A DNA stretch of 42,817 bases from Desulfitobacteriaceae bacterium. Lineage in GTDB: Bacteria > Bacillota > Dehalobacteriia > Dehalobacteriales > Dehalobacteriaceae. The first letter of the stretch is position 1; each line of letters opens with the position of its first letter. The notes below the pieces were generated by a model. The model made no database searches. It saw nothing but the letters and a program-made list of their open reading frames with translations, and was not told the DNA's origin. Location of the stretch: assembly GCA_028709045.1 (NCBI GenBank), contig JAQVXR010000003.1, positions 1 through 42,817 on the forward strand. Reading direction: 5' to 3'. Positions 22,636 through 27,113 of this stretch are shown here, in pieces. A program made the translations under genes and the position numbers.

Positions 22636-22785
22636 TCACTTGGTTATCTTATCTTTTTCGGTATCTTGCTGATGTGTTTTTTCTTCCCCACCGGAAGAAT
22701 GGGGCATACCTCAGCAGGCACCTTTACCTGATACAGCCCGATAAATCAAAAAACCGATTAGCAACATTATAATTATTGTTTCCAT
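22636..22785 (-). CDS. Candidate small membrane selenoprotein (in-frame TGA at codon 25)
   Basis: I do not recognise a named family. The ATG at 22785 lies 8 bases after AGGAG and 13 bases after the csoR stop. Codons 1-24 give one membrane helix (about residues 2-18) then GKGAC. Codon 25 is TGA (22713-22711), followed by GMPHSSGGEE and a charged tail; the next stop, at codon 50, abuts the trxA ribosome site. Read through as selenocysteine, the product is 49 residues with a Cys-Sec-Gly-Met-Pro-His motif, a set of soft-metal ligands on the end of a membrane anchor. A SECIS-like hairpin begins 11 nt after the TGA. Alternatives: a 24-residue peptide ending at TGA, or a gene with a nonsense mutation (TGC/TGT to TGA). 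Confidence 0.65.
22681..22699 (-). promoter_or_regulatory. Candidate bacterial SECIS stem-loop
   Basis: On the minus strand a perfect 7-bp stem (TTCTTCC with GGAAGAA) closes on the loop GGTGG, starting exactly 11 bases after the in-frame TGA. In E. coli fdhF the minimal SECIS upper stem also begins 11 bases after the UGA and has a GGU-containing apical loop (family knowledge). An overlapping alternative, CCCCA with TGGGG, also exists. I cannot confirm the bulged U of the E. coli element. Confidence 0.55.
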
Positions 22786-22798
22786 ATATGCAACTCCT

Positions 22799-23082: not shown

Positions 23083-23099
23083 ATACCCCTGCCTGGTAT
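23083..23099 (-). promoter_or_regulatory. CsoR operator-like palindrome
   Basis: ATACC-7 bases-GGTAT, with a G-rich centre (ATACCAGGCAGGGGTAT on the minus strand), lies 10-26 bases after the -10 box of the csoR promoter. CsoR operators in Bacillus and relatives are G/C-tract palindromes flanked by ATAC/GTAT, so autorepression is likely. Confidence 0.7.
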
Positions 23100-23109
23100 A
23101 CCTATTTAG

Positions 23110-23138
23110 ATTATATAACGTTTATCAAAATTTGACAA
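23110..23138 (-). promoter_or_regulatory. SigA-type promoter for csoR operon
   Basis: TTGTCA (23138-23133), 17 bases, TATAAT (23115-23110) on the minus strand. The start point falls next to the operator at 23083-23099. Between this promoter and the 6S RNA gene (23139-23291) I see nothing more. Confidence 0.82.
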
Positions 23139-23291: not shown

Positions 23292-23483
23292 AAAATAACC
23301 CCACAAATGCCGTGGGGCCGATGTTTTGAACCTGCTCTCCGCAGGTGGGTACCTCCTGAATGCTTTCTATGTCCCCCTCATAAGGAGGCGTATAGGCTAC
23401 ACCCAGAGTCAGGTTCCCTTTTAAACTGTGTTGGCTCAAAACATATCAGCGAATTCACACGTACATTGTAGGGCGCTGGTTAC
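23292..23483 (-). ncRNA. ssrS: 6S RNA (RNA polymerase-holoenzyme regulator)
   Basis: About 190 nt, the usual 6S length. Read on the minus strand it has the conserved halves of the Firmicutes type: GATATGTTTTGAGCCAA on the 5' side, GGGAACCTGAC, a GGGGGAC block, GGAGGTACCCACCTGC, and GCAGGTTCAAAACATCGGC on the 3' side, which pairs back with the 5' half to form the long rod with a central bubble. It ends in a terminator with a 6-bp CCCCAC/GTGGGG stem (23299-23317) and a T-rich tail. It follows aspS, as does 6S-1 RNA (bsrA) in B. subtilis by my recollection. 6S RNA binds the housekeeping holoenzyme in stationary phase. Confidence 0.92.
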
Positions 23484-25396: not shown

Positions 25397-26659
25397 TTAA
25401 AATAAATTTTCTTTTACGACCTTAACAACATCATTTAAAGAAACTTCAATTTGTTCAGAAGTATCCATCCGGCGCATAACTACCACTCCCCGGCTCAACT
25501 CAGTTTCTCCGATTATAATTGTAATGCGTGCATTAAAACGGCCGGCATGTTTCATCTGGGCTTTTAGACTTCTTCCCAGAAAATCTTTCTCGCTTTTGAC
25601 TCCTTCTTGCCGTAATTTCATTAAAATTTGAAAACCTACTTTGTCTGCCTCATCCCCTAGTGTTGCTACAAAAACATCCAGCGGTTTCTCAATGGAAATA
25701 TTTATTCCCTGTGTTTCCAATGTAGGAAAAATTCTCTCCATCCCCAGGGCAAACCCTACTCCCGGAGTCGGTTCCCCTCCCAATGATTCAAGAAGTCCAT
25801 CATACCTTCCGCCCCCGCAAATCGCACTCTGGGCTCCAATCTCTTTGACGATGATTTCAAAAGCGGTCTTTGTATAATAGTCCAGGCCGCGCACCAATCG
25901 TTCGTCAATTACATATTTTATTTCGGCTAAGTCAAGATAACCCTTAACCTTGTCAAAATGCTCCCCACACTCTGGGCAGAGGCAATCCAGAGTGGTCGGA
26001 GCTCCCTGTGACAACTCCTGGCATTTGGCATTCTTACAGTCTAAAATGCGCAAGGGGTTTTTTTCAAATCGCTCTCGGCAATCTGGGCAAAACTCATTTA
26101 AATTCTTTATAAGAAATTCCTGCAGTTTTTCCCGATGTTTTTTTCGGCAGTTTGGACAGCCCACACTGTTTAAATGCACTTCCAATCCGTTTAACCCCAA
26201 ACGCCGGTAAATTTCCATAGCTAACCCAATCACTTCAGCGTCAACGGCCGGTTCAGAACTGCCAAAGGCCTCCACTCCAAACTGATGAAACTGCCGATAG
26301 CGGCCTGCCTGCGGTCTTTCGTACCGAAACATTGGCCCCATGTAAAAAAGTTTTGTCGGCTGGGGAAGTGCATACATCTTGTGTTCCAGATAGGCTCTGG
26401 CGGTGGATGCTGTTCCTTCAGGCCTCAGTGTTATGCTGCGTTCACTCCGATCAAAAAATGTATACATCTCCTTGGAAACAATATCAGTTGTTTCTCCCAC
26501 GCCTCGCTGAAACAATTCTGTATGTTCAAATATCGGAATGCGAATTTCCCGGTAGCCAAACTCCCGGCATACCGTTCTCAATAAATCCTCCAAGTACTGC
26601 CACTTTTCCGTTTCCCCGGGTAAAAAATCATTGGTTCCCCTGGGTCTGGTCGTCAGCAC
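25397..26659 (-). CDS. hisS: Histidyl-tRNA synthetase
   Basis: Class II synthetase with motif 1 (RPRGTNDFLPGE start region), motif 2 (GPMFRYERPQAGRYRQFHQFG), the histidine motifs RGLDYYTKTAFEI and GGGRYDGLLESLGG, and the C-terminal anticodon-binding domain. A cysteine-rich insert (CPNCRKKH, CPDCRERF, CPECGEHF) suggests a zinc-binding module. The frame extends nine codons upstream, but AAGGAGG precedes GTG 26659 by about 8 bases, which I take as the start (420 residues). It is the first gene after the T-box leader. Confidence 0.96.
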   Translation of the reverse strand: MLTTRPRGTNDFLPGETEKWQYLEDLLRTVCREFGYREIRIPIFEHTELFQRGVGETTDIVSKEMYTFFDRSERSITLRPEGTASTARAYLEHKMYALPQPTKLFYMGPMFRYERPQAGRYRQFHQFGVEAFGSSEPAVDAEVIGLAMEIYRRLGLNGLEVHLNSVGCPNCRKKHREKLQEFLIKNLNEFCPDCRERFEKNPLRILDCKNAKCQELSQGAPTTLDCLCPECGEHFDKVKGYLDLAEIKYVIDERLVRGLDYYTKTAFEIIVKEIGAQSAICGGGRYDGLLESLGGEPTPGVGFALGMERIFPTLETQGINISIEKPLDVFVATLGDEADKVGFQILMKLRQEGVKSEKDFLGRSLKAQMKHAGRFNARITIIIGETELSRGVVVMRRMDTSEQIEVSLNDVVKVVKENLF

Positions 26660-26770
26660 ATAAAAAACCTCCTTTTCAAATTCCATATCTCTTTAGGCAC
26701 ACACTATCCCCAGACAATCGGGGTCAACACACTTCCCGGCTGAAAAAAGAAATGACTCAATATCCAAATT

Positions 26771-27113
26771 AAAAAACTCCCGTGCTGACGACAAAATTAT
26801 CATCAGGGACGAGAGTATTTCCCGCGGTGCCACCCCTATTGGATAGTGCTATCCCACTTAAGCCAGATAACGGTTGGTTCCGGGCACCCTTTTCAGGTAC
26901 CGGCTCCCGGGTGTCCTTTTGCATGAGGTTTTGGAAAAGCTTCCAGTCGCGGCTCTTCCTCCCTGTGAAAACCCGTACAGCAAAACTCCCATTCACAGCC
27001 TTCAGTTTATGAACAGTTCTTCGTAAGATTGGATTTTCTATCTCAAAGTGAGGAATCATCAAAGCAAAGTGAATTGCCTCTTATTATGGATAGTACAAAC
27101 ACCAATCTGACTG
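26771..27113 (-). promoter_or_regulatory. T-box leader controlling hisS-aspS
   Basis: tRNA-sensing attenuator. The T-box core GGTGGCACCGCGG is at 26834-26822 on the minus strand. It is followed by a terminator (about 26816-26777: 8-bp outer stem plus inner stem, then TTTTTT), the helix expected to be replaced by the antiterminator when uncharged tRNA binds. Upstream are a first stem closed by AGATTGG/CCAATCT (about 27105 to 27026), a second by CTGTGAA/TTCACAG, and a third GC-rich hairpin (ACCCGGG...CCCGG). A His codon CAC at 27050-27048 lies in the first stem and is a candidate specifier; the exact specifier loop is not certain. Confidence 0.9.

Follow-up and report, generated by a model that had tools for sequence, protein, structure and literature searches.

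A Small Membrane Protein with a Predicted Cys-Sec Pair, Encoded between csoR and trxA, Is Likely to Represent a New Selenoprotein Family

Results

A Candidate Selenoprotein Gene between csoR and trxA

A 42,817-nucleotide stretch of contig JAQVXR010000003.1 from a Desulfitobacteriaceae bacterium (hereafter the window) contains, between the genes for a metal-sensitive repressor and a thioredoxin, a frame for a 49-residue protein that very probably receives selenocysteine (Sec) at UGA25. The case for Sec, made from sequence, is strong and is chiefly comparative: the same slot, the same TGA codon, and the same hairpin geometry recur in related genomes. The frame opens with an ATG at position 22785 and continues for 24 more open codons after TGA25; read with TGA as Sec (U), its product is METIIIMLLIGFLIYRAVSGKGACUGMPHSSGGEEKTHQQDTEKDKITK. 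A sequence-only reading of the window had proposed this gene, and its description of the frame, from the coordinates and ribosome-binding site to the helix, Cys24, TGA25, and the codons beyond, was exact (Table 1). It had also argued that a stop placed by chance would not hand over so neatly to trxA. The adjacency holds in the window, where the trxA ribosome site (AGGGAG) begins right behind the final stop of the selenoprotein gene, but the openness of the frame is less telling than had been thought: 4 of 30 long ORFs of the window are likewise open for at least 20 codons past their stops, and openness beyond TGA25 is therefore weak evidence by itself. A filter that combined a ribosome-binding site, a start codon, a TGA, at least 18 open codons, and a bacterial SECIS (bSECIS) hairpin of -7.5 kcal/mol or better returned this frame alone from both strands of the whole window.

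Table 1. Features of the csoR–trxA region, in window coordinates
Feature	Position	Strand	Remarks
Candidate selenoprotein gene, 49 codons	22639..22785	-	TGA taken as Sec; G002 and G003 have orthologous genes
Terminal stop TGA of selenoprotein gene	22638-22636	-	
In-frame TGA, codon 25, candidate Sec	22711..22713	-	Same codon is TGA in three genera
Cys24 codon	22714-22716	-	Immediately before TGA25
Ribosome-binding site AGGAG of selenoprotein gene	22794..22798	-	Abuts csoR stop, 8 nt before ATG
SECIS-like hairpin UUCUUCC-GGUGG-GGAAGAA	22681..22699	-	7-bp stem, loop starting 18 nt past TGA
N-terminal membrane anchor, about residues 4-15	22740..22776	-	From hydropathy; followed by R16 and K21
csoR, metal-sensitive repressor, PF02583	22799..23065	-	Cys-His-Cys ligand pattern C33, H58, C62
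trxA, thioredoxin WCGPC, TIGR01068	22295..22621	-	Gene after selenoprotein in putative operon
CsoR-type operator-like repeat ATACCAGGCAGGGGTAT	23083..23099	-	Upstream of csoR
TATAAT-like box	23110-23115		Near operator-like repeat, which lies downstream of the box

Orthologues Keep the TGA and the Residues on Both Sides of It

When the window protein was compared with 101 genomes in which stops were read through, two orthologues were found, each with exactly one internal TGA: one in the MAG DUPU01 (G002; E = 1.0e-9) and one in Ca. Formimonas warabiya DCMF (G003, NZ_CP017634.1; E = 9.6e-5), which represent two other genera of the same order. Their products are MESLIIAVLIIFLVYRAVTGKGICUGRVHSSGQEEIKDIKNVDNFKKINNDENK (G002) and MATILIGIIIAFVIFRMVSGKSSCUSRVNPSGQEGTKKVKQENKG (G003). 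Both genes lie in the csoR–trxA slot, and both have TGA, rather than TAA or TAG, at the codon equivalent to 25. Residues are conserved on both sides of TGA25 in the three genera (R16, V18, G20, K21, C24, Sec25, S31, G32, and E34, among others, are invariant), and the motif around Sec reads G-x-C-U-G or S-S-C-U-S. The agreement of three independent genomes excludes a sequencing error at the TGA and led us to reject a pseudogene as well. Synonymous and non-synonymous changes after the TGA were also counted, but the numbers are too low to be informative, and the hairpin described below confounds them.

Profile searches of 43 genomes of the class and 399 genomes of the phylum revealed no further Sec orthologues; the remaining matches look like chance, one of them (L115) upon inspection. 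A DNA pattern, run against a collection of 84,980 species, recovered only G002 and G003, and its hits on other contigs, from unrelated taxa, were taken as chance matches. A search of genome contigs with the single protein gave no match, probably owing to the TGA and the short length.

In the three genomes rarA, aspS, and hisS surround csoR, the selenoprotein gene, and trxA. G001, the family's fourth genus, has kept csoR–trxA–rarA, with a 122-nt gap between csoR and trxA that is devoid of the selenoprotein gene. This gap (L058) holds ATGGCAATTCTATCTGGA, which bears a faint likeness to the opening of the gene in G003 (ATGGCAACAATACTTATCGG) and is possibly a decayed remnant.

A SECIS-Like Hairpin at a Fixed Distance from the TGA

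In all three sequences the TGA is followed by a 7-bp stem with a 5-nt loop that begins with GG (GGNNN) and sets in 18 nt after the TGA. The hairpins are UUCUUCC-GGUCA-GGAAGAA in G002 and UCCUUCC-GGGCA-GGAAGGG in G003, with energies of -8.1 and -9.6 kcal/mol, respectively, and that of the window genome (G000) has an energy of -8.2 kcal/mol. The bSECIS model specifies a loop of 3-9 nt, a stem of 4-16 bp, a spacing of 16-37 nt, G in the first two loop positions, and an energy of -7.5 or lower (PMC13188914), and all three hairpins lie within every rule quoted there. Within the window, roughly 1.1% of TGA triplets have a hairpin to match the one in G000. The stems differ by one compensatory pair (U-A to C-G) and one change of U-A to U-G; three sequences give too small a sample for the covariation to be significant, and its score was reached by 169 of 500 shuffles. 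Folding of the whole region was not decisive, with an unremarkable z value of -0.35 for G000 and moderate values of -2.0 and -2.3 for G002 and G003. The simple contiguous-stem test for SECIS elements is insensitive, in that it detected nothing at the grdA genes and only -5.8 kcal/mol at selD.

The Genome Encodes the Selenocysteine Machinery

The machinery for Sec, which the sequence-only reading had named as something to look for, was found. Contig C117 carries selA (594.7 bits) and then selB (386.4 bits); selD is present and itself contains an in-frame TGA; and a tRNA-Sec with a UCA anticodon (57.8 bits, above the cut-off) lies at the extreme start of contig C192. ARAGORN does not call this tRNA, perhaps because its 5' end is cut at the contig start. 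A second above-cut-off match to tRNA-Sec, on C117, is actually a tRNA-Ser. There are three grdA genes with one TGA in each, and hence the organism evidently decodes Sec routinely. G001, G002, and G003 likewise carry selB.

No Described Family Accounts for the Protein

Searches of Pfam-A and NCBIfam, including the selenoprotein models, gave no match to the window protein at E values up to 10, and the G002 and G003 orthologues drew two chance-level NCBIfam matches only, none of them meaningful. A 2026 inventory counts 119 prokaryotic selenoprotein families, several with a CU motif; nothing in the 2026 selenoprotein review was recognized as a small csoR–trxA selenoprotein, and CsoR is unmentioned in it. 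The review table includes, under NCBIfam accessions, the families from two source papers on new selenoproteins. Selenium goes unmentioned in a genome paper that treats the class Dehalobacteriia, and literature searches turned up no description of such a gene. The earlier supposition that no family of this kind had been described is borne out by the models and the catalogue, and the small csoR–trxA gene is likely to be a new family among selenoproteins.

The Gene Appears To Be an Addition to an Older Gene Pair

Across the phylum, the arrangement of csoR and trxA side by side, often with rarA as well, is conserved (L077-L106). Outside this family, trxA lies downstream of csoR on the same strand at 18 of 29 close csoR loci of the phylum. 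The gap in 16 of these pairs is -2 to 93 nt, so that the selenoprotein gene cannot fit, and in the other 2 a gene of the RseC/MucC family lies between. Being widespread in the phylum, csoR–trxA is therefore an old pair, to which the selenoprotein gene, judging from this distribution, seems to have been added in one lineage. An operator-like repeat similar to that of the window is found in all four family genomes (ATACCGGGTAGGGGTAT in G002 and G003 and ATACGGGGTAGGGGTAT in G001). Meanwhile, trxA directly follows the selenoprotein gene in each of the three genomes that have it, and in G002 and G003 it has a good ribosome site of its own after a short gap.

The putative operon of csoR, the selenoprotein gene, and trxA contains no copper transporter gene. 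For this reason, and because many csoR–trxA pairs occur without the small protein, the tie to copper is one of association; CsoR relatives can sense species other than copper.

Two structured RNAs are encoded on the minus strand nearby: a 6S RNA (RF00013, 97 bits) at 23294-23477, between aspS and csoR, and a T-box leader (RF00230, 94.8 bits) at 26802-27005, upstream of a histidyl-tRNA synthetase-like ORF at 25397-26686.

Tiny Cys-Cys Membrane Proteins Share the Layout

A weak match in the search of 101 genomes (G043, E = 0.08) drew attention to a group of tiny, unnamed proteins that consist of an anchor helix and a GGCC[GS] motif. Of 399 genomes searched in the phylum, 22 have matches at E ≤0.001, and about a dozen of these were read. 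Members of the group (L119-L136) had, where tested, no Pfam or NCBIfam match. One is encoded directly after csoR (L121) and another near csoR (L119), three are encoded beside CopA-type ATPases (L125, L128, and L130), and one is fused to a YHS domain (L123). In a profile comparison the Cys-Cys pair aligned on Cys24-Sec25 (E = 1.9e-5, probability 78%); with Sec masked as X the E value was 4.2e-5, and the alignment moved by one gap, so that the Cys-Sec register was no longer fixed. The score was reached in none of 150 permutations of all profile columns and in 4 of 150 permutations of the anchor columns only. On these comparisons we take the common layout to be real, and common descent of the Cys-Cys proteins and the selenoprotein to be likely but not proven. 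In this broader set Cys codons do line up with the TGA, but the homology of the set is borderline when its layout is controlled for.

Discussion

A Proposed Cys-Sec Site under CsoR Control

How might the protein work? The best hydrophobic stretch begins at residue 1 to 4, and an AlphaFold model has a helix from residue 2 to 23 with the remainder as a disordered tail. By the positive-inside rule, R16 and K21, which follow the anchor, suggest an N-out/C-in orientation, which would place the Cys-Sec pair on the cytosolic side, separated from the membrane by a few residues. We picture csoR, the small selenoprotein gene, and trxA as a single transcript from a promoter that overlaps the CsoR-type operator. 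The hairpin 18 nt downstream of UGA25 would recruit SelB and Sec-tRNA for the insertion of Sec and the completion of the 49-residue protein, whose N-terminal helix would serve as the anchor while Cys24-Sec25, on its cytosolic tail, stayed near the membrane. The operon would be induced once CsoR sensed an excess of Cu(I) or of some other thiophilic metal or species. The metal would then be bound by the Cys-Sec pair, as it presumably is by the Cys-Cys pair of the similar proteins beside csoR or CopA, and thioredoxin would reduce a selenenylsulfide and so restore the metal-binding form.

Taken as a whole, this reading, in which a membrane-anchored Cys-Sec soft-metal site is controlled by CsoR, with Cu(I) the most likely ligand and TrxA the reductant, is the one toward which we lean. 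The insertion of Sec, which is very probable, and co-transcription, membrane topology, copper as the ligand, and partnership with thioredoxin are its inferred elements, and the assignment of a soft-metal site derives from the neighbouring genes. Such a role is preferred mainly because the Cys-Cys look-alikes adjoin csoR or CopA genes or carry YHS; the Cys-His-Cys ligands of CsoR and the conserved operator-like repeat also speak for metal. The phrase "soft-metal or redox site" used in the sequence-only reading was a reasonable guess, and the genomic context favours metal, with thioredoxin in support. More tentatively, the new family may be a Sec-upgraded form of widespread, unnamed Cys-Cys proteins of copper systems, with a Cu(I) or soft-metal site under CsoR control and TrxA as its dedicated reductant.

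The same selenoprotein could instead be purely redox-active: tethered to the membrane, its Cys-Sec pair would relay electrons to or from TrxA, with a chemistry akin to that of the Gly-Cys-Sec-Gly tail of animal thioredoxin reductase, and would bind no metal. We regard this as possible but less probable. It would suit the constant position of trxA right after the selenoprotein gene in the three genomes, the G-x-C-U-G or S-S-C-U-S motif, and the two other genomes in which an RseC/MucC membrane Cys protein fills the same slot. TrxA evidently does not need such a partner, however, since 16 of 18 csoR–trxA pairs are without one; the Cys-Cys look-alikes are found alongside copper genes; and the likeness to the animal motif (see below) is only four residues long.

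Readings in which the peptide matters little or ends at the TGA are much less likely than the metal and redox readings. In one, the frame is a selenium-sensing leader, in which read-through of UGA25 brings ribosomes to the trxA start and the peptide is secondary. The abutment of the final stop on the trxA ribosome site in the window is what such a leader would show, but we consider it improbable: the peptide shows conservation before and after the TGA, for which a leader would have no need, the trxA genes of G002 and G003 have their own ribosome sites, and similar tiny Cys-Cys proteins exist without a UGA. Least probable of all is an ordinary stop that ends a 24-residue membrane peptide in Cys, with the downstream similarity due to chance or to an untranslated RNA structure; the open stretch past the TGA is short and TGA, which ends 6 of 30 long ORFs of the window, is a usable stop, but it has been kept in three genera despite a preference for TAA (19 of 30), along with in-frame residues beyond it and a SECIS-type hairpin whose spacing is identical in the three sequences, and the genome has a complete Sec machinery.

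Small selenoproteins escape gene callers twice, through their short length and through an apparent stop. The one described here likely represents a new family of very small architecture, in hosts related to anaerobes studied for the fermentation of dichloromethane and glycine betaine, and through it selenium is linked with a thioredoxin operon under metal regulation. Read-through can be tested on an existing public proteome, that of Ca. F. warabiya DCMF (PRIDE PXD037334; PMC9768040).

Comparison with Known Systems

Vicinal Cys-Sec is also found in several selenoproteins of the review table, namely SaoC (NF040734), KCU-star (NF033934), MbdU (NF045648), SaoL (NF040728), HgcA (NF040863), and a CopZ-type 2Fe-2S protein (form 2), several of which are tied to metals or organometals. 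No NCBIfam HMM for these CU proteins matches the selenoprotein, however, and its size and gene neighbourhood are absent from the table. The RseC/MucC-family proteins (L084 and L105) resemble it as membrane proteins with a Cys cluster encoded between csoR and trxA, but they are of about 150 residues, belong to PF04246, and have no Sec. Animal thioredoxin reductase ends in a C-terminal tail with Gly-Cys-Sec-Gly. The four-residue motif is of the same type, and a thioredoxin is encoded by the next gene, but the selenoprotein is a 49-residue membrane peptide with no flavoprotein domain, and we treat the resemblance as a lead only. The tiny Cys-Cys proteins have in common with it an N-terminal anchor helix, a Gly-rich stretch, a vicinal Cys pair, a hydrophilic tail, and, for some, proximity to csoR; they differ in having Cys for Sec, in their His-rich tails, in being often encoded beside CopA, and, in one case, in a YHS fusion. 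These unnamed membrane proteins around csoR and copA, whose common descent with the selenoprotein is likely but not proven, deserve a function, and their anchor-helix layout and csoR neighbour are seen again in the selenoprotein, with U in place of the second C.
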